A stretch of 40,717 nucleotides of DNA from Phormidium tenue FACHB-886 (GTDB lineage: Bacteria > Cyanobacteriota > Cyanobacteriia > Elainellales > Elainellaceae): the NCBI RefSeq assembly GCF_014764505.1, contig NZ_JACXWX010000041.1, positions 1 through 40,717 of the forward strand, given 5' to 3'. The position numbers were made by a program, and so were the translations under genes. The notes under the pieces are model-generated. The model was not told the origin of the DNA. It searched no databases and saw only the letters and a program-made list of their open reading frames with translations. The number at the start of each line of letters is the position of its first letter. Position 1 is the first letter of the stretch. Of this stretch, positions 11,241 to 20,293 are shown piece after piece.

Positions 11241-11999
11241 TCATCGAGATGCCATGCGTATACGTGTGATTAAATCATTCAACGCTGCTTTCACCGAGGG
11301 AGTCTCCGGCAAATAGCTGCGATCGCTCGCGGCTTCCAAAGTTTGTACCAGACGCTGATATTCCTGCTGATGAAAGGCTAAATCAGTTTGGCTGCGAACT
11401 GCTTTTTTAGTGCCGCTCAACTTTTGAGCGACCAGATCAGCAATGTAGGGCAGCTGAAACTCCTTGTTCAGAAGAATTAGATTCGCCTCAATTTCTCCCG
11501 TCTGCATTAAATGAATACCCGTCAGCAGAACGCGATACAAATAAAGCAATGGTTTAACCCGATGCGGATTTTCCTTCTCAAATAGCCGCCATTGCGTTTG
11601 AGCAAAACCGAGGTAGTGATGGCTGTGATAGCGCGTGATGCAGCCTTTAGCGATCGCCTTCAATTCCTCCTGCTCAGGTGTCGCATAAACAATATGCGGC
11701 GAGTAAAGCTGTTCCAGAACATAACCATTGCGCTTCAGCAGCAGCCCGCAAAACTTCTTGAGGTCATGGGTGACGAGATCCAGCTGCAAACCGTCCTGAA
11801 GCTGCGACACTTCGATTGTTTCCCGTCCTGAATCCAGTCCAATCACTTCTTTTAGCGGCAGGATGTGAACGCCGCGCAGGTCATAGTCGGAGTCAGGAGA
11901 GGGAAAGCCGTAGAGGTGCGCCCCGCTAATTGTGGCAAACAGTAGCGGGTAAGGCTGTTGAGTGACAGCGGTGAGCAGTGGGATTGCGATAGTATTCAT
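11241..11999 (-). CDS. RlaP-type predicted nucleotidyltransferase (PF10127), copy 1
   Basis: A 252-aa protein of the polymerase-beta nucleotidyltransferase superfamily. ISGAHLYGFPSPDSDYDLRG holds the G-x(9)-DxD catalytic motif, with D38 and D40 as metal ligands. The family's usual GS is GA here. RGVHILPLKEVIG and HDLKKFCGLLLKRNGYVLEQ are typical of the YcgL/RlaP group, which comparative genomics has linked to RNA repair. Its ATG overlaps the stop of the upstream paralogue by 4 bases (ATGA), so the two are translationally coupled. The target (RNA end, nucleotide or protein) is unknown. Confidence 0.82.
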   Translation of the reverse strand: MNTIAIPLLTAVTQQPYPLLFATISGAHLYGFPSPDSDYDLRGVHILPLKEVIGLDSGRETIEVSQLQDGLQLDLVTHDLKKFCGLLLKRNGYVLEQLYSPHIVYATPEQEELKAIAKGCITRYHSHHYLGFAQTQWRLFEKENPHRVKPLLYLYRVLLTGIHLMQTGEIEANLILLNKEFQLPYIADLVAQKLSGTKKAVRSQTDLAFHQQEYQRLVQTLEAASDRSYLPETPSVKAALNDLITRIRMASR

Positions 12000-12943
12000 G
12001 GTTCAACAGCAGCCATACTGCGACGAGCTTGAATCAGAAAAGCATTTGCCTGTTCGTAGTTGGGACGTTCGGGCAGCTTGGTCTGGGCGAAGGCACGATC
12101 GAACGTCTGGTGTAGGTCGAGTCGCCAAGCATTGACCGCGTCCCAAGACATCTCCTGATGCCGGATTGCCAAAAGCTGCGATCGATAGTCCTCAACCTGT
12201 ACGGGCACGAATCCCTCCTTGAGCACGGTAATCCCGGATAGCAAGAGACGAATCAAGTGCATCGCGTGCTTCCAGCGAATCTCGCCTTTTGTGCGGAGGT
12301 CCTGCTCCATCTTCTTGAATTGCGACAGCACATAGCTGTTGTAAGTTTGGTAAACCAATTGCGACAGGAAGATTTCTCGGAGCTGCAACAGTTCAGTTGC
12401 GATCGGTGTGGCAACTTCAACCAAAGGCGTATAAAGACATTCCAGCACGTTCGGATTTGCCTTCAACGCTAGAATCAAAAACTTTTGGAGTTCCCAGTAG
12501 CATTCCTGGGTTACCGCGTTTTCTAGCTGCTCAGGAATGCCATAGAGTGACCAGTGCAACGGGGCAGGGGGTAGATAAATCCCCCGACGATCAATGTCTG
12601 AGGCTTCATGGTCTAGTCCATACGCTCTAGAACCGACAACACAGCGATAAATGACAGCATCGTACAGGTTGTAATCTGCCAACACTGCTTGTGAAACCTG
12701 TAACCCCTCACTCTGGTAATGTTTGCGGATACTGAATTCATGCCGTCGCAGATTGACCATTGACTGATCCGGCAGTTGAATCTGGTAAGTGTGGGAGTTA
12801 TCCGTTGGAGCTTTGACGATCGCGCCCACTGCTCCCCGCAAGCAGACGAGTGTTCCGGTCGAGGTTTTCACCTCAATCCGGGTCACAACTTGTGTACCCT
12901 GGGGCAAAATCAGGTTGTAGGCAGAAGTTTCCTTTTGCGTCAT
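11996..12943 (-). CDS. RlaP-type nucleotidyltransferase, copy 2, with SH3-like N-terminus
   Basis: A 315-aa paralogue of the downstream gene. Residues ~90-315 contain CVVGSRAYGLDHEASDIDRR with the canonical GS (G104, S105) and DxD (D116, D118). ELQKFLILALKANPNVLECL matches copy 1. It carries an extra ~75-residue N-terminal domain (RGAVGAIVKAPTDN through YQIQLPDQSMVNLRRHEF) that looks like a small SH3/KOW-like barrel, a common nucleic-acid or protein-docking module. GGGAGG 4 bases before the ATG is an excellent ribosome site. TATAAT on the minus strand at 12982-12987 is a likely -10 for the two-gene operon. Confidence 0.82.
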   Translation of the reverse strand: MTQKETSAYNLILPQGTQVVTRIEVKTSTGTLVCLRGAVGAIVKAPTDNSHTYQIQLPDQSMVNLRRHEFSIRKHYQSEGLQVSQAVLADYNLYDAVIYRCVVGSRAYGLDHEASDIDRRGIYLPPAPLHWSLYGIPEQLENAVTQECYWELQKFLILALKANPNVLECLYTPLVEVATPIATELLQLREIFLSQLVYQTYNSYVLSQFKKMEQDLRTKGEIRWKHAMHLIRLLLSGITVLKEGFVPVQVEDYRSQLLAIRHQEMSWDAVNAWRLDLHQTFDRAFAQTKLPERPNYEQANAFLIQARRSMAAVEP

Positions 12944-14343: not shown

Positions 14344-14835
14344 TGCTTCCTCTCCCAGGCGATTGAACTATGGCTTGAACAACTCTTGCTTCGGCGATTA
14401 CTACTTCATTGATTGCTTTGAGGTACAAGCAGGTATTTCGGCGCAACAGATTGCAACGCTCAAGCAACACAATCAGAACTCTGAAAGAATGTTTGAGAAT
14501 TTCCTTTTTACACCTTGGCGTTGTGATCTCCCTAGCCCCTCTTAAAAAGGAAGACCGAGTGATTCAAAGCTCCCTTGCAGGAGGATTTAGGGGACCAAAC
14601 AACATAGCGGTACTAAAAAAGACTCTTCAAACGTTCCCTGAAGAAGAGCATTGTAAATGACACCCTCTTTACTCAAGGTTCCCATCTGATTAGCGCCTAT
14701 CGTCAAATTCTGGGAATTAACTGTTAAATGACAATTAGAATCAGTTGCCACGGGAGTTTTAACGTCTACTGGCTGCTGAGCCGCTAAAATGGAATCTACA
14801 ATGATGCATCTCCAGCAGCCAGGGTACGAAGTTTT
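14344..14835. other. Intergenic with degenerate repeat and ORF-like debris
   Basis: At 14523-14600 CCCTAGCCCCTCTTAAAAAGG and GAGGATTTAGGGG form a degenerate inverted pair of the kind seen in dispersed cyanobacterial repeats. On the minus strand, about 14606-14790, a stop-free stretch contains VNSQNLTIGANQMGTLSKEG without a proper start codon; it may be a gene fragment. No RNA gene was seen. Confidence 0.3.
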
Positions 14836-16053
14836 CTACGGCATAGCAAAATCTACCAATGTTTGCTCAAGGTGAGCGAGGTTAACTTCCTGTTGTTCTA
14901 CAGCACCTAAACGCCGGAGATTCAACGTTTGACTGATAGCTTCCTGCTCACCTACGATCGCCATCAATGGCACTCGGCGTTTAGAGAGTTCTCGAATCTT
15001 TCTGCTGATTGTCCGATCCTGATTATGAAGTTCTACTCTAATTCCTAGCTGCTGAAGCCGCGAGAAAATTGCTTCTGCCCAAGCCGATGCTTTATCAGAA
15101 ATAGAGGCAATTGCGATCTGAGTCGGCGCAGCCCAAACGGGCAGGATACCGCTATGGTGTTCTAGCAAAATGCCAATCCAGCGTTCTAGCGATCCTAAAA
15201 TTGCCTGATGCAACATGACGGGACGTTCCAATTCTCCCTGTTCATTCACAAATCCCAGCTCAAAGACTTGAGGGAGATTGAAATCAATTTGAAATGTGCC
15301 GCACTGCCACGATCGACCCAGTTGATCTTGCAAACTGATTTCGAGTTTTGGTCCATAGAATGCTCCTTCATTTGGAGCCAATTGGTAAGTGTGTCCTAAA
15401 GATTGAACGGACTCAATCAACAGAGATTCAGCGCGATCCCATAGATGAGTAGAACCAAGTCGCTGCTCAGGTCTCAGGGAAATTTGCAAGGAAAATTGGC
15501 TATAGCCAAAAGCAGAATAGACCTGCTGCACCATCTTGAGAAAATTGCTAATTTCCTGCTGCACATCAGCTTCTCGGCAGAAGATATGAGCATCATCTTG
15601 AACAAACTGTCGCAGTCGCATACAGCCCGATAGTGTACCCGACAGCTCATTGCGATGGCAGATACCAAACTCCATCAAGCGCATGGGATGCTCCCGATAG
15701 CTACGCTTATGAGACTGATAGATAGCAATATGAGCAGGACAGGACATTGGCTTCAGTGCGTAGTCAGGATTGATGACAGACAATTCATTGCTGCCATTTG
15801 CTTGTTCGCTACCGACTACAAACATCCCTTTGCGAAATTTTTCCCAATGTCCTGAACGCTCCCAAAGCGATCGACTGAGCACAATAGGCGATCGAACTTC
15901 ATCAAATCCATGGTCCTGATAAACCTGCCGCATAAAGTTTTCAATGCTGCGAAAAAGCTGCAGCCCCTGCGGGTGCCAGAACACCATTCCCGGACTATGC
16001 TCCTCAAAGTGAAATAAGTCCATATCCCTTGCCAGTTCACGATGATCCACCAT
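14836..16053 (-). CDS. thrS: Threonyl-tRNA synthetase paralogue, catalytic core only
   Basis: A class II synthetase that charges tRNA-Thr. The protein is 405 aa, against ~600-640 for a full ThrRS. It begins at DHRELARDMDLFHFEEHSPG, i.e. at the catalytic domain, so the TGS, N1 and N2 (editing) domains are absent. Motif 2 is CHRNELSG...MRLRQFVQDDAHIF; motif 3 is GSLERWIGILLEHHSG. All three zinc/threonine ligands are present: C105 (MSCPAH), H156 (DDAHIF), H282 (MLHQAILG). The anticodon-binding domain follows, ending at MP. Without N2 it could not clear Ser-tRNA-Thr by itself. Anabaena has a comparable second, proofreading-impaired ThrRS (T2) induced by zinc shortage, which borrows editing by pairing with T1; this is probably its counterpart. 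AAGGAG precedes the ATG. Expression appears controlled by two leader-peptide attenuators upstream. Confidence 0.92.
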   Translation of the reverse strand: MVDHRELARDMDLFHFEEHSPGMVFWHPQGLQLFRSIENFMRQVYQDHGFDEVRSPIVLSRSLWERSGHWEKFRKGMFVVGSEQANGSNELSVINPDYALKPMSCPAHIAIYQSHKRSYREHPMRLMEFGICHRNELSGTLSGCMRLRQFVQDDAHIFCREADVQQEISNFLKMVQQVYSAFGYSQFSLQISLRPEQRLGSTHLWDRAESLLIESVQSLGHTYQLAPNEGAFYGPKLEISLQDQLGRSWQCGTFQIDFNLPQVFELGFVNEQGELERPVMLHQAILGSLERWIGILLEHHSGILPVWAAPTQIAIASISDKASAWAEAIFSRLQQLGIRVELHNQDRTISRKIRELSKRRVPLMAIVGEQEAISQTLNLRRLGAVEQQEVNLAHLEQTLVDFAMP

Positions 16054-16087
16054 TTTGGGTTCTCCTTGTTGTGTAAGTTATCAGACA

Positions 16088-16118
16088 ATAAAAAACCCTC
16101 CAAGCGAGGTTTGGAGGG
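16088..16118 (-). terminator. Attenuator terminator 2 (gene-proximal)
   Basis: On the minus strand the stem CCCTCCAA/TTGGAGGG (16118-16111 and 16103-16096) with a 7-base loop is followed directly by TTTTTT (16095-16090). It lies between leader peptide 2 and the thrS ribosome site, so transcription stopping here would prevent thrS expression. Its 5' arm, TCCCTCC (16119-16113), is complementary to GGAGGGA in leader 2. Confidence 0.85.
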
Positions 16119-16124
16119 ATGGGT

Positions 16125-16140
16125 AATTGCATACGCAATT
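16125..16140 (-). promoter_or_regulatory. Spacer hairpin of attenuator 2
   Basis: AATTGC-GTAT-GCAATT, a perfect 6-bp stem-loop, lies between the leader-2 stop and terminator 2. In the antiterminated state it would be enclosed between the paired GGAGGGA (16157-16151) and TCCCTCC (16119-16113), bringing them together. Confidence 0.55.
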
Positions 16141-16145
16141 GACCG

Positions 16146-16211
16146 TCATGTCCCTCCTGACGTGATGGTAGTGGTGGTAGTGTTGATTGCGAGCGGCAGT
16201 GTCAGCAACAT
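16146..16211 (-). CDS. Thr-rich leader peptide 2
   Basis: A 21-codon ORF on the minus strand. It begins MLLTLPLAIN, continues with five consecutive Thr (11-15), Ile, Thr17, Ser, and ends Gly-Gly-Thr-stop. Eight of 21 residues are Thr, and all four ACN codons occur (ACA, ACT, ACC, ACG). AAGGAG lies 5 bases before the ATG, a strong ribosome site. The Gly-Gly codons are GGA GGG, complementary to the 5' arm of terminator 2 about 33 bases downstream. This is the layout of a translated attenuator leader sensing charged tRNA-Thr: stalling in the Thr run leaves GGAGGG free, whereas completing translation buries it under the ribosome. Confidence 0.85.
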   Translation of the reverse strand: MLLTLPLAINTTTTTITSGGT

Positions 16212-16229
16212 AAGACTCCTTCTAATTCC

Positions 16230-16266
16230 AAAAAATATTGCCCTCCAGATGGAATCTGGAGGGCAA
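16230..16266 (-). terminator. Attenuator terminator 1 (distal)
   Basis: A perfect 12-bp stem on the minus strand, TTGCCCTCCAGA/TCTGGAGGGCAA (16266-16255 and 16249-16238), has a 5-base loop and is followed by TATTTTTT. It sits between leader peptides 1 and 2. Its GCCCTCC arm can pair with GGAGGG(U) from leader 1. Confidence 0.88.
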
Positions 16267-16299
16267 CTGAAGCAGTAAGACTAATTCCAGCGCGGCGCC

Positions 16300-16362
16300 T
16301 TACGACCCTCCTAAATGGGCAGTTAGAGTGGTAGTGGTGATAAGGGTAACGGCTGCTTTCAT
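16300..16362 (-). CDS. Thr-rich leader peptide 1
   Basis: A 20-codon ORF on the minus strand, MKAAVTLITTTTLTAHLGGS. Six of 20 residues are Thr, including a run at 9-12, encoded ACC/ACT. As in leader 2, the ORF ends Gly-Gly-x-stop with GGA GGG as the glycine codons (plus-strand CCCTCC at 16306-16311), complementary to the 5' arm of terminator 1. The ribosome site before the ATG is weak. The sequence of leader 2 is otherwise different, so the shared design (Thr run, then GGAGGG, then stop, then terminator with CCCTCC) is unlikely to be chance. Confidence 0.82.
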   Translation of the reverse strand: MKAAVTLITTTTLTAHLGGS

Positions 16363-16390
16363 GATAAGAAGAACTTTGCTTTTATATATT

Positions 16391-16419
16391 CTCTAACTCA
16401 ACTCAACAGTATATGTCAA
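16391..16419 (-). promoter_or_regulatory. Candidate promoter of the thrS leader
   Basis: On the minus strand a consensus -35 TTGACA (16419-16414) is followed after 17 bases by TTAGAG (16396-16391), with the AT-rich AATATATAAAA just beyond. Transcription would begin about 20-25 bases before leader 1. I saw no TGATAAT...ATTATCA-type Zur box here. The -10 is poor, so it may need an activator or an alternative sigma factor. Confidence 0.45.
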
Positions 16420-16549
16420 GGGTGCCGAGTACCCACCAAGATTGAAAATACATTTAGCAGGCTTAACGATGGGTCCTTGAAGTTATTGCTTTATAGCATT
16501 TGTGAGCTGTTGTGCTTCAGACTGCGACGATATCCTTCCGGTAGCGCAG

Positions 16550-16985
16550 TACGATCGCTATTTTATCCCGCTATCCTTAAGTGGCTCGATCGCATCGCGG
16601 GGGTATCCTTACTCAGTTCTGGGCTAATGGTACTCTCCAGTTATAGCGCTCAAGATAGCCCAGAGGCTCATGTTTTGCGTTCATTGCAAGAATTGAGGCG
16701 TTCAGATTCTTTAAAAAGCCAGGGATCTAGTGTGACAATGTTACTAAGCTTCAACTCAAAATGTAACGAAACAATTCAATGCTGGCACTTCGGCAGATTT
16801 TCGTTCTGCCTTTTCCGAATTACCTCAAAAACCTACACAGCCTAACGTCACTTACTTCATGAAATGCCTTGAGCAGTCTACATTTATAGGAATGGGTTCG
16901 ATATACATTTGAAGAATTGGCATTGCTAGAATTAATTGGTCTAGTTGATCCATTAAATTTTGCCTCACCAAAACTTTTGTGAGAA
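16550..16985 (+). pseudogene. Possible degraded gene, unknown
   Basis: Coding-like stretches appear in successive plus-strand frames: IAGVSLLSSGLMVLSSYSAQ with EAHVLRSLQELRRSDSLKSQ, then ADFRSAFSELPQKPTQPNVT and YFMKCLE, then EELALLELIGLVDPLNF before a TGA at 16979-16981. The pieces could be one frameshifted protein with a hydrophobic N-terminus. I recognise no family, and chance is not excluded. The rest of the gap to 17186 shows nothing. Confidence 0.25.
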
Positions 16986-17186
16986 CAGGAATGATTTACT
17001 CAGGAAAGATAACCTACCGTAATGAAATATGTAAGTTGTATACTCTCGAAAAGCGAGATTGGTCTAACAATTCTGCTGCCCGGCAGTAATCCAAGCTATT
17101 AGCGAAATGCAAAGATCGCTTACGTTTAGTGAGCCGAGCCCTTGTGCGACAGCATCTAGCATCTTGATGCATAGTGGTAAAAAGAC

Positions 17187-18104
17187 ATGATCGAAAAGAC
17201 AAAATCCAAGCAAGAAGTACTTGATCTAGCCCACAAGCATGATTTAACTATCCAAGAAGATTCACTGCAATTTAACGAATCGGGACTTGATTTTCAAGTT
17301 GTGTTAGCAACGGACGCTGATGGAGACCGCTGGATTTTGCGTCTCCCTCGGCGAGAGGATGTTCTCCCCTCAATGGATAAAGAAAAACGTACGCTGGAAC
17401 TAATTGCCCCTCTTCTGAGTGTGGAAGTCCCACGATGGACTATTTGCACAGATGAACTCATTGCTTATCGGGCATTAAACGGTGTGCCAACAGGTACAAT
17501 TGACTCGGAAGCAAAAGCTTATGTGTGGGAAATTGATGCAGCGAATCCACCCGATCAGTTTCATGAATCGCTAGCTAAAGGGATTGCCTCTCTTCATCAA
17601 GTTAGCATTGCAGAAGCACAAGCAATTGGTCTTTCCATCGAAACTGCTGAAGAAGCACGTGCAGCGCTGAAGCAGAAGATGGATACCGTGAAGGACAAGT
17701 TTGGTGTTGGTGAAGAGTTATGGAACCGTTGGCAATCCTGGCTCCAAAAGGATGACGTTTGGCCGAAAGAAACAGTGTTAACTCATGGCGATTTACACGC
17801 TGGGCATATTTTGATTGATGCCCAAGCACAGGTAACAGGCTTCATTGATTGGACTGAGGCAGCCGTCACTGACCCAGCCTGTGATTTTGTTGCCCACTAC
17901 CGCACTTTTGGCGAAGACGCCCTTAATAAGCTGATATCAGCATATGCCGAGGCAGGTGGATGTGTTTGGCCGAAGATGGCAGAACACGTCATTGAACTGG
18001 CTGCTTCTTATCCCATAGCCATTGCGGAATTTGCGCTGAAGTCAGGCTTGGATGAATATAAACAGATGGCTAGACAATCGCTTGGCGTGAGCGACTCCGA
18101 GTGA
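17187..18104 (+). CDS. Macrolide 2'-phosphotransferase-like kinase
   Basis: A 305-aa aminoglycoside/macrolide phosphotransferase-fold protein of the Mph branch. DRWILRLPRREDVLP is the nucleotide-contacting strand typical of Mph enzymes. VLTHGDLHAGHILID is the Brenner-type catalytic loop (D202, with H200 and H204), and GFIDWTEAAVTDPACDF carries the metal-binding Asp (D221). Mph enzymes inactivate macrolides by GTP-dependent phosphorylation of the desosamine 2'-OH. Chromosomal homologues in environmental bacteria may act on other substrates. It is alone, in a region rich in gene debris, so acquisition by transfer is possible. No strong ribosome site was seen. Confidence 0.85.
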   Translation: MIEKTKSKQEVLDLAHKHDLTIQEDSLQFNESGLDFQVVLATDADGDRWILRLPRREDVLPSMDKEKRTLELIAPLLSVEVPRWTICTDELIAYRALNGVPTGTIDSEAKAYVWEIDAANPPDQFHESLAKGIASLHQVSIAEAQAIGLSIETAEEARAALKQKMDTVKDKFGVGEELWNRWQSWLQKDDVWPKETVLTHGDLHAGHILIDAQAQVTGFIDWTEAAVTDPACDFVAHYRTFGEDALNKLISAYAEAGGCVWPKMAEHVIELAASYPIAIAEFALKSGLDEYKQMARQSLGVSDSE

Positions 18105-18898: not shown

Positions 18899-20293
18899 TT
18901 ACTTCAACAATCCGGGTGTAGAGAACATAGAGCTGTCTGTAGAGAATGCTAGAGGCTGATAAGCGCTTGATCGCATCCAGCCTGCCAGCTCGCCTGACAG
19001 AGATGACGCCTGATTCAAACCCTCTAGACAGCCTCTAGTTTGAGCTTCTTCTAGTAGTGAAAGAGCAAGGCGATTGGTTCCTGACTTTCCTTGCAGTAGG
19101 AGATTAGTAGTCCCTGCAATCTGATTATGTTCTCCTTGATTTAGACCAGATTGCGATCGCTGTATTTCAACAGGTACAGGTATTGCACCAAAGGCGACTC
19201 CAATTTCTTCATCAACCACTTGCAGAACGGACTCTTGCTGAAACTGATGTTTGTAAGCAGCGATGATTTGAGAGATAGATTCCTCGTTTGCCTGCGTGTC
19301 TTCAACAATTAGAGAAACAACTTTGCTCGGTTCACGAATTAGGGTTCCAGACCGATCGAGAAACTGTCCTCTAGCGTTATACACCGTCAGACCATCAGAA
19401 AATTTTGGAGTTACAACATCGCTCAAAAACTGTCGAAATTGCTGATTTGTAACTCTTCCCTCTGTGCCGATGTTGCGACCAAAATAGAGGTCAACCTGAA
19501 TTTGTTCTGGCACCGGATCATTGTCAATCAAATCTTCTGCACCACCAAAACCAACTTTGACCTCTTCATTAACGACTTCCAGAACGGATTCTTGCTGGAA
19601 TTGGTGCTTGTACTGGTTAATGATTGTGTCGATCGCTTGCTCGTTGGTTTCAGTGTCTTCGACAATCAGTGAAACTACTTTGCTCGGCTCTTGAATCAGG
19701 GTGTTGGAACTATCTAAAAATTGTCCTTGTCCGTCATACACCGTTAGACCATCTGAAAACTGGGACGTGATCTTTTGATTCAGAAATCGCTGGAACTGCT
19801 GCTCAGAAACTTCCCCAGTTGTGCCGATGTTGCGACCAAAATAAAGGTCAACTTGAATTAGCTCTGGGTTCAGGTCATTTTCGATCGAATCATCAGCAGG
19901 ATCAAAGCTAACATTGATATCTGGATTGGCAACTCGCAAAACAGATTCTTGCTGAAACTGATCTTTGTAAGCGTCGATGATTTGATTGATCGATCGCTGA
20001 TTGGTTAGGTTGTTTTCATAAAGCAGAGAGACAACCTGGCTTGGTTCACGAATCAGCGTATTGGTGCTGTCTAGAAATTGCCCGTTAGCATTGTAAACAG
20101 TTAGCCCATCAGGAAAGAGCGGCGTAACTGTTTGGCTAAGAAATTGCTGAAATTCTGCTTCTGTTACCTGCCCAGTTGTACCAATGTTGCGGCCAAAATA
20201 TAAATCTTCTTGAATTAAAGCAGGCGCATTGTGCTGAAATTGAACGAGCGAATCTGGTACTCGATCGAGAGTTGACCCAGTAACTAATGACAT
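18899..20293 (-). CDS. Protein with three tandem DUF3574 repeats
   Basis: A 464-aa protein built of three near-identical units with an exact 119-residue period (DLYFGRNIG at Y32, Y151 and Y270). Each unit carries LYFGRNIGT..G.V, F...LSQ.VTP.FPDGLTVY, GQFLD...TLI.EPS.VVSL and YK.QFQQESVL. That is the DUF3574 pattern, normally a single ~130-aa domain. The units are joined by acidic Asp/Glu/Asn-Pro linkers. A ~100-residue Ser/Leu-rich tail follows. No signal peptide or membrane helix is seen. AGGAATAGGAA precedes the ATG. The function of DUF3574 is unknown; strong unit similarity implies fairly recent internal duplication. Confidence 0.8.
   Translation of the reverse strand: MSLVTGSTLDRVPDSLVQFQHNAPALIQEDLYFGRNIGTTGQVTEAEFQQFLSQTVTPLFPDGLTVYNANGQFLDSTNTLIREPSQVVSLLYENNLTNQRSINQIIDAYKDQFQQESVLRVANPDINVSFDPADDSIENDLNPELIQVDLYFGRNIGTTGEVSEQQFQRFLNQKITSQFSDGLTVYDGQGQFLDSSNTLIQEPSKVVSLIVEDTETNEQAIDTIINQYKHQFQQESVLEVVNEEVKVGFGGAEDLIDNDPVPEQIQVDLYFGRNIGTEGRVTNQQFRQFLSDVVTPKFSDGLTVYNARGQFLDRSGTLIREPSKVVSLIVEDTQANEESISQIIAAYKHQFQQESVLQVVDEEIGVAFGAIPVPVEIQRSQSGLNQGEHNQIAGTTNLLLQGKSGTNRLALSLLEEAQTRGCLEGLNQASSLSGELAGWMRSSAYQPLAFSTDSSMFSTPGLLK

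Follow-up and report, generated by a model that had tools for sequence, protein, structure and literature searches.

The locus described here raises the question of how a second, shortened threonyl-tRNA synthetase (ThrRS) gene is kept under control in a cyanobacterium. We analysed a stretch of 40,717 nucleotides, hereafter called the window (positions 1–40,717 of contig NZ_JACXWX010000041.1 from Phormidium tenue FACHB-886, genome code G000). Its thrS gene occupies positions 14836–16053 of the minus strand and encodes a ThrRS of 405 amino acids consisting of the catalytic core and the anticodon-binding domain. Most probably (we estimate a probability of about 0.87, based on sequence analysis), tandem ribosome-mediated transcription attenuators that sense Thr-tRNA control this backup ThrRS, which lacks an editing domain.

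The product of thrS matched the NCBIfam profile TIGR00418 with 452 bits, and tRNA-synt_2b and HGTP_anticodon were its only Pfam domains. Since the TIGR00418 match starts at profile position 171 (171–558 of 565) and no more than these two domains were found, the TGS and editing domains are missing. The nearest solved structures are those of ThrRS chains some 410 residues long, and the alignment of the short enzyme covers residues 243–609 of the 642-residue ThrRS 1qf6. Zinc independence of the short enzyme was considered and ruled out, because the Cys, His and His zinc ligands, at what we take to be the zinc-binding positions of E. coli ThrRS, are present in the alignment. The same genome also encodes a longer ThrRS (open frame of 617 amino acids, 39% identity to the short one), and each of 15 other genomes with a short copy has at least one further ThrRS (37–41% identical, open frame of 562–639 amino acids). 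Judged from frame length, the longer proteins would be the full-length enzymes, and the compact editing-less ThrRS would supplement them, probably in a backup role. In a tree of 44 rows, which included thrS loci from other bacteria and left out the interrupted thrS of genome G015, all 17 short ThrRS rows formed one clade (support 100/100, stem of 1.37 changes per column) separate from both sets of cyanobacterial full-length enzymes. The attachment of this clade is weakly supported, and the tree program warns of long branches.

Upstream of thrS, direct reading of the minus strand confirmed the original prediction of Thr-run leaders, GGAGGG codons and CCCTCC terminators at the places claimed. 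Leader ORF 1 (16300–16362, minus strand; MKAAVTLITTTTLTAHLGGS; 20 codons and a TAA stop) has Thr at residues 9–12 and contains GGAGGG at 16306–16311 as two Gly codons, the proposed arm 2 of an antiterminator. It is followed by a predicted intrinsic terminator (16230–16267, minus) composed of arms 3 and 4 and a T tract, with a hairpin of 14 pairs at 16267–16237 and a folding energy of −24.2 kcal/mol. The 5′ arm of this terminator, CCCTCC at 16258–16263 (minus; arm 3), complements both flanking GGAGGG copies. Leader ORF 2 (16146–16211, minus; MLLTLPLAINTTTTTITSGGT; 21 codons and a TGA stop) is preceded by an AAGGAG site, has Thr at residues 11–15 and carries its own proposed arm 2, GGAGGG, at 16152–16157 (minus). 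Behind it lies a second predicted intrinsic terminator with six T residues (16090–16118, minus; hairpin 16118–16096; −12.6 kcal/mol), whose 5′ arm is CCCTCC at 16113–16118 (minus; arm 3). In both units the stop codon lies 9 nt after the start of GGAGGG, and the distance from the stop codon to the start of CCCTCC is 36 nt in unit 1 and 27 nt in unit 2. Both leaders had been said to end in Gly-Gly; the GGAGGG codons are there, but one further sense codon (Ser or Thr) precedes the stop. A putative −35 element of the promoter, TTGACA, was read at 16414–16419 of the minus strand. The proposed promoter motif is present, and in 16 of 18 related loci TTGAC is kept no further than 90 nt upstream of leader 1, but the promoter remains only TTGACA-like, and a sigma-70 scan of the window did not include 16419–16414 among its predicted promoters. 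The two of these 18 loci in which TTGAC is missing upstream of leader 1 are the Acaryochloris plasmid copies.

On both strands of the whole window, leaders 1 and 2 are the only ORFs of 10–40 codons with at least four consecutive Thr residues, and both have a terminator behind them. Dinucleotide shuffling of the 427-nt upstream region (n = 3000) gave a Thr-run ORF in three cases, two such ORFs in none and a terminator behind the ORF in none, and 170 other loci (1.93 Mb, strands summed) contained eight Thr-run ORFs, one of them with a terminator behind it. As background we used thrS loci from other bacteria (at least 80, 43–50% identity, mostly Proteobacteria), which also served as tree rows, and 57 loci from viral contigs (39–50% identity), none of them a close relative. 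The leader RNA (16380–16054) was more stable than 100 of 100 shuffled sequences (z −3.2).

To find further copies from the gene side, protein searches were run with E-value limits that were not uniform across them, and these gave 13 short-thrS loci. Four carriers (82–100% identity) were found among 36 genomes of the order to which the window belongs, two (one new) among 386 genomes of the phylum, seven (six new) among 291 genomes of the order of genome G040, and two among 72,556 plasmid records, both on plasmids of Acaryochloris marina MBIC10699. All 13 of these loci, found by protein similarity only, have leader 1, and 12 of them have leader 2. In the exception, G007, a Thr-rich ORF stands at the place of leader 2 without GGAGGG and terminator, and the functional second unit has been lost. 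From the leader side, 388 genomes of the class were searched with a covariance model (R2) built from 25 trimmed leaders; 10 candidates were scored per genome under strict filters, so that weaker elements elsewhere may be missed. At E ≤ 1e-4 R2 gave 20 matches in 11 genomes, nine of which (five genomes) were sequences used to build the model and 11 of which (six genomes) were new. Every match precedes a short thrS or, in G016, the broken remnant of one. Five of the six genomes with new matches have an intact short thrS behind the leaders; the sixth is G016, where altered copies of both leaders (L239:3700–4450, minus) stand before a clade-B-type thrS with a stop codon and deletions. An earlier model, R1, produced two weak overlapping matches on opposite strands elsewhere in the genome of the window (L121 and L122, G000:C79:18833–18970, 24.7 and 23.2 bits).

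The combined set comprises 18 short-thrS loci in six families and Acaryochloris, five of them found through the leader itself; G015 is counted and the G016 remnant is not. The thrS frame is open in 17 loci, while that of G015 (L087:1501–2697) has an in-frame TAG after 325 codons behind two leaders that look intact. All 18 loci have leader 1 and 17 of them have leader 2, and the expected layout of Thr run, GGAGGG, stop codon and CCCTCC terminator upstream of orthologous genes was thus recovered. Leader 1 of G729 starts near −598 (others −303 to −402), has a poor T tract and was missed by R2 and found by the ORF scan. A pattern that ignores the remaining sequence (GGAGGG, CCCTCC, GGRGGG) matched in 54 of 386 genomes. 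In the genome of the window it hit the two thrS sites only (the reversed control pattern gave one match), and no leader was seen at five other pattern loci that were inspected.

The variation among these loci bears on whether the leaders are translated. Within the leader ORFs, all 24 gaps counted per row over 25 leaders had lengths that are multiples of three, compared with 13 of 37 between stop codon and terminator; because related rows share gaps, these counts are not independent events. All 25 leaders have a distance of 9 nt from GGAG to the stop codon. In 35 leaders the Thr codons are mixed (ACC 120, ACT 80, ACG 31, ACA 23), while the Gly pair is GGA GGG in 33 of the 35, namely in all 18 leader 1 ORFs and in 15 of 17 leader 2 ORFs; the remaining two, from G718 and G578, have one changed arm 2 base each (one GGAGAG, one AGAGGG). 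Selection thus acts on the amino acid in the Thr run and on the RNA at the Gly codons. Mixed Thr codons together with a fixed GGA GGG are what Thr-tRNA sensing with an RNA-level role of GGAGGG predicts. Regarding translation initiation, ATG and GTG starts were allowed in the ORF scan; alternative starts are possible for several leader 2 ORFs, Shine-Dalgarno-like sites lie upstream of 6 of 17 leader 2 ORFs, and no clear Shine-Dalgarno site was seen by eye for leader 1. One might suppose that the hairpins serve as ordinary terminators or bind a factor and that the Thr-rich ORFs are no more than untranslated trinucleotide repeats, since (ACN)n is a low-complexity repeat able to drift and translation of the leaders is deduced from their sequence. 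Against this stand the open frames, the gap lengths within them, the constant distance to the stop codon, the use of all four Thr codons and the lack of further such ORFs in the window, and we give this explanation next to no chance. Most likely, the leaders are translated.

Sequence comparison establishes the layout, its conservation, the reading frames, the complementarity of the arms, the link to the gene and the limits of the cassette described below, and it makes attenuation a strong prediction. In either unit, arm 2 (GGAGGG together with the bases running over the stop codon) could pair with arm 3 (CCCTCC) to form an antiterminator, and in the alternative fold arm 3 would pair with arm 4 to form the terminator. 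When Thr-tRNA is plentiful, the ribosome would reach the stop codon, with GGAGGG beginning 9 nt ahead of it, and cover arm 2, and the terminator would form. When Thr-tRNA is short, the ribosome would halt in the Thr run, free arm 2 would capture arm 3 and the RNA polymerase would read on, such that uncharged tRNA-Thr would induce the gene. Since two terminators have to be passed in turn, thrS would be very tightly off, with a steep rise only upon ThrRS failure or threonine shortage.

The complementarity of the arms is consistent with this scheme. Folding only the stretch that spans arms 2 and 3 gave full GGAGGG:CCCTCC pairing in 24 of 25 leaders and partial pairing in the one with GGAGAG. In the 25-row alignment, 149 of 150 cells of the antiterminator core (2:3) were paired, a value that fell to 50–75% when the partner was slid along, and the terminator core (3:4) was paired to 94%, with one pair being U-G instead of U-A in 11 of the 25 leaders. 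The near-invariant 2:3 helix and the drifting 3:4 helix show a tighter constraint on arm 2 than on arm 4. As there is hardly any variation in the core 2:3 helix, no compensatory change was found in it. In four divergent leaders the helix runs on across the stop codon, and two of its pairs differ at both positions; covariation of this extended helix, coming from four sequences, is weak and was reached by 40 of 500 shuffles. The original prediction of attenuation is supported at the short-thrS loci by the open, conserved reading frames and by this antiterminator potential. Several features of a leader-peptide attenuator are found here: clustered Thr codons, a terminator after the stop codon, a mutually exclusive antiterminator whose 5′ arm a ribosome at the stop codon would cover and one halted in the Thr run would leave free, and a downstream gene for charging with the same amino acid.

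Ribosome stalling was modelled for 35 leaders by masking the ribosome footprint and ending the RNA before arm 4. The mean probability of 2:3 pairing was 0.82 with the ribosome at the Thr codons vs 0.54 without a ribosome. The value of 0.00 with the ribosome at the stop codon is a matter of geometry, as the footprint masks GGAGGG, and the values often near 0 with the ribosome at the last Thr codon before GGAGGG come likewise from the mask. Without a ribosome, the 2:3 probability of leader 1 was below 0.5, predicting termination, in 13 of 18 copies, where the early Thr codons and the preceding bases can pair with arm 2; the five copies predicting antitermination are those of G007, G040, G430, G587 and G729. 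Leader 2 gave values above 0.5 (antitermination) in 13 of 17 copies and termination in four. As modelled, a protective 1:2 pairing in untranslated RNA is not general across the leaders.

The readthrough predicted without a ribosome for 13 of 17 leader 2 copies would also fit the idea that leader translation matters but that the signal is general stalling or a ribosome antibiotic, with the Thr run acting as a nascent-chain arrest sequence. Leader-peptide switches responding to antibiotics exist, and the window has a gene for an Mph-like macrolide phosphotransferase some 0.8 kb away from the promoter of the cassette. Arrest peptides, however, keep a specific sequence, whereas in the leaders the length and position of the run and its partner residues vary, Thr identity is kept and synonymous codons are free. 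Moreover, the controlled gene is a short ThrRS gene in 18 of 18 loci while the flanking DNA mostly differs, which leaves this explanation a slim chance. A further possibility is that only the second unit regulates, leader 1 and terminator 1 being a relic or a constitutive transcription trimmer. The default termination predicted for most leader 1 copies and the lack of a clear Shine-Dalgarno site agree with this, but leader 1 is the more conserved unit, both in occurrence and in its invariant GGA GGG, and it is the sole intact unit in G007. We therefore regard the chance that unit 1 has no regulatory part as very slim and prefer two Thr-tRNA-sensing attenuators acting in series.

With regard to known systems, classical attenuators (E. 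coli thrL type, Rfam Thr_leader RF00506) belong to proteobacterial amino-acid operons and pheST. The leaders described here resemble them in the cognate codon run, the overlap of terminator and antiterminator and the leader stop codon beside the switching arm; unlike them, they stand before an aminoacyl-tRNA synthetase gene of cyanobacteria and are arranged as two units in series. An Rfam search of window positions 14500–17200 gave no Thr_leader (RF00506) or T-box match at E ≤ 5. Two other Rfam matches in the thrS region were rejected, as both were far below gathering scores. A T-box needs no ribosome and itself binds the uncharged tRNA; in this it differs from the window leaders, for which a stalled ribosome is proposed. 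The thrZ gene, which is also preceded by T-boxes, encodes a spare ThrRS.

According to excerpts of two articles, thrS is the only synthetase gene of Bacillota with tandem T-boxes (PMC12452182), and multiple T-boxes precede thrZ but none were found in 13 cyanobacterial genomes (PMC2494555). The T-boxes of thrS and thrZ, as described in these excerpts, share with the window leaders the principle of tRNA-charging sensors in series, there two or three (PMC12452182, PMC2494555). The doubling, which had been put forward as new, therefore has a precedent, but in the form of the unrelated T-box (PMC12452182, PMC2494555, in the same excerpts). A Thr leader before thrS is likewise already in print: in Streptomyces lividans, as given in an excerpt of PMC8079986, the Thr-containing leader peptide MKRVRPFLETTPGFVPAR precedes thrS in the thrL-thrS arrangement. 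It is like the window leaders in this respect and differs from them in having two Thr only, a single leader and no clear terminator, and in belonging to an actinobacterium (PMC8079986, same excerpt). In bacilli, histidine leader peptides are described before the synthetase-related paralogues hisS* and hisZ (PMC2965389, in part); these too are cases of leader-peptide attenuation of synthetase-related paralogues outside proteobacteria, and they differ by their histidine codons and their occurrence in Firmicutes. No word beginning with cyanobacteri occurs in the main text of PMC2965389. An excerpt of a 2016 article on leader genes states that reliable data on attenuation were lacking for cyanobacteria and tenericutes (PMC4833913), and the one leader-peptide passage in the excerpted text of PMC8632094 is not about cyanobacteria. 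As to the cyanobacterial double case, for which novelty had also been claimed, no cyanobacterial leader-peptide attenuator was found among the papers listed from the open-licence literature, which covers the field in part, subscription papers lying mostly outside it. While the class of mechanism is known, the occurrence in cyanobacteria, the tandem layout and the target, a mobile editing-less ThrRS, are new here.

Zur control of the window thrS was also considered. With the motif that we take to be the Zur box, no box-like site was found within 16100–16700, which includes the promoter region, and Zur control was rejected, the window containing 30 box-like matches vs 27 expected and none at the promoter. 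A second ThrRS is known from another cyanobacterium, Anabaena, whose thrS2 product (T2) is, according to an excerpt of PMC4787780, expressed under stress, repressed by Zur and equipped with the N2 editing domain. Unlike the gene for T2 as described there (PMC4787780), the window thrS encodes no editing domain and has no Zur-like promoter box.

Thr leaders may also occur singly before thrS elsewhere. A relaxed scan of thrS upstream regions examined 108 of 168 loci, the gene being unplaced in 60, including the full-length thrS of the window's genome (L002). Four of the 108 loci (L034, L045, L046, L080) have a Thr-rich ORF with a terminator, a result to be read as a lead and not as a survey. In Vogesella alkaliphila (L034:2115–2280), a tRNA-like stretch is followed by the 12-codon ORF MFKRTTTTRISR with a GGAG site, a terminator and a full-length thrS, making this locus a candidate for a single Thr attenuator in a betaproteobacterium. 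L046 and L080 (Burkholderia and Paraburkholderia) have in common a Thr-rich ORF of 14 codons, MTPRTLTETTSERR, then a terminator and thrS, and in L045 (Rhodocyclaceae) the Thr-rich ORF VVTRTCTRVGL lies upstream of thrS. Judged from these sequences, single Thr leaders preceding thrS in some betaproteobacteria are candidates.

To delimit the conserved unit, the DNA of the 18 loci was compared by blastn (E ≤ 1e-5; positions relative to the thrS start). Between the window and G040, G691, G755 and G026, similarity extends from −366, the TTGACA motif, to a point between +1190 and +1225; the last position of the gene is +1218. In other close relatives a shorter stretch of the promoter-leader-thrS unit matches the window, and in the divergent loci (G602, G549, G583, G587, G729) the match covers the gene alone. 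Between −426 and +1231 the two Acaryochloris plasmid copies, on pREC1 and pREC2, have 96% identity, and within 4 kb on each side they share nothing beyond this stretch; their annotated neighbours differ. Exceptions are G698 and G755, which belong to one genus and share −627 to +2045, and pREC1 and G718, which have another stretch in common (+4287 to +4822) that falls inside folE on pREC1. Since homology usually runs from the promoter to the thrS stop codon and the neighbours differ, the promoter, both attenuators and thrS seem to form one transferable cassette that moves as a unit.

Several neighbouring genes were recorded. At the plasmid copies (L188:1774–8847 and L187), the thrS cassette of pREC1 is divergent from cysS and lies about 3 kb from folE, which is also near the cassette in G718. 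On pREC2 a gene for a Fur-family regulator lies downstream and one for a 'metal-binding protein' upstream. There is thus a hint of zinc-related genes around the cassette. A Cys-run leader was not seen in front of the pREC1 cysS gene, where there is only one ORF with two Cys. In the window, the gene at 17187–18104 (plus strand), about 0.8 kb from the cassette promoter, encodes a product most like Mph(B) macrolide 2′-phosphotransferases (414 bits, below the NCBIfam cutoffs). Two adjoining, slightly overlapping genes at 11241–12943 (minus) both belong to the RlaP family of RNA-repair nucleotidyltransferases, and the 464-amino-acid protein encoded at 18899–20293 (minus) has three internal repeats around 'VDLYFGRNIGT' and no NCBIfam match above cutoff.

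As to why such a cassette would be kept, we offer tentatively, and with some doubt, that it is a horizontally moving, self-contained rescue or resistance device: an editing-less ThrRS that stays silent until the ThrRS of the host fails, a failure it would sense via its own attenuators in series. Causes of such failure could be a natural ThrRS inhibitor, a loss of zinc or a severe lack of threonine. Because the cassette carries its own attenuators, it would work in any host with coupled transcription and translation. If this is true, the rescue cassette would be a case of convergence with the tandem T-boxes, which thrS alone has among the synthetase genes of Bacillota, and a mobile editing-less synthetase would be linked to a switch that senses failure. 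That Bacillota reached a tandem design with T-boxes (PMC12452182, as excerpted) suggests that thrS in particular may call for sensors in series. Finally, a double attenuator that is conserved and defined at the sequence level would provide a ready test of whether transcription and translation in cyanobacteria are coupled as tightly as leader-peptide control needs.
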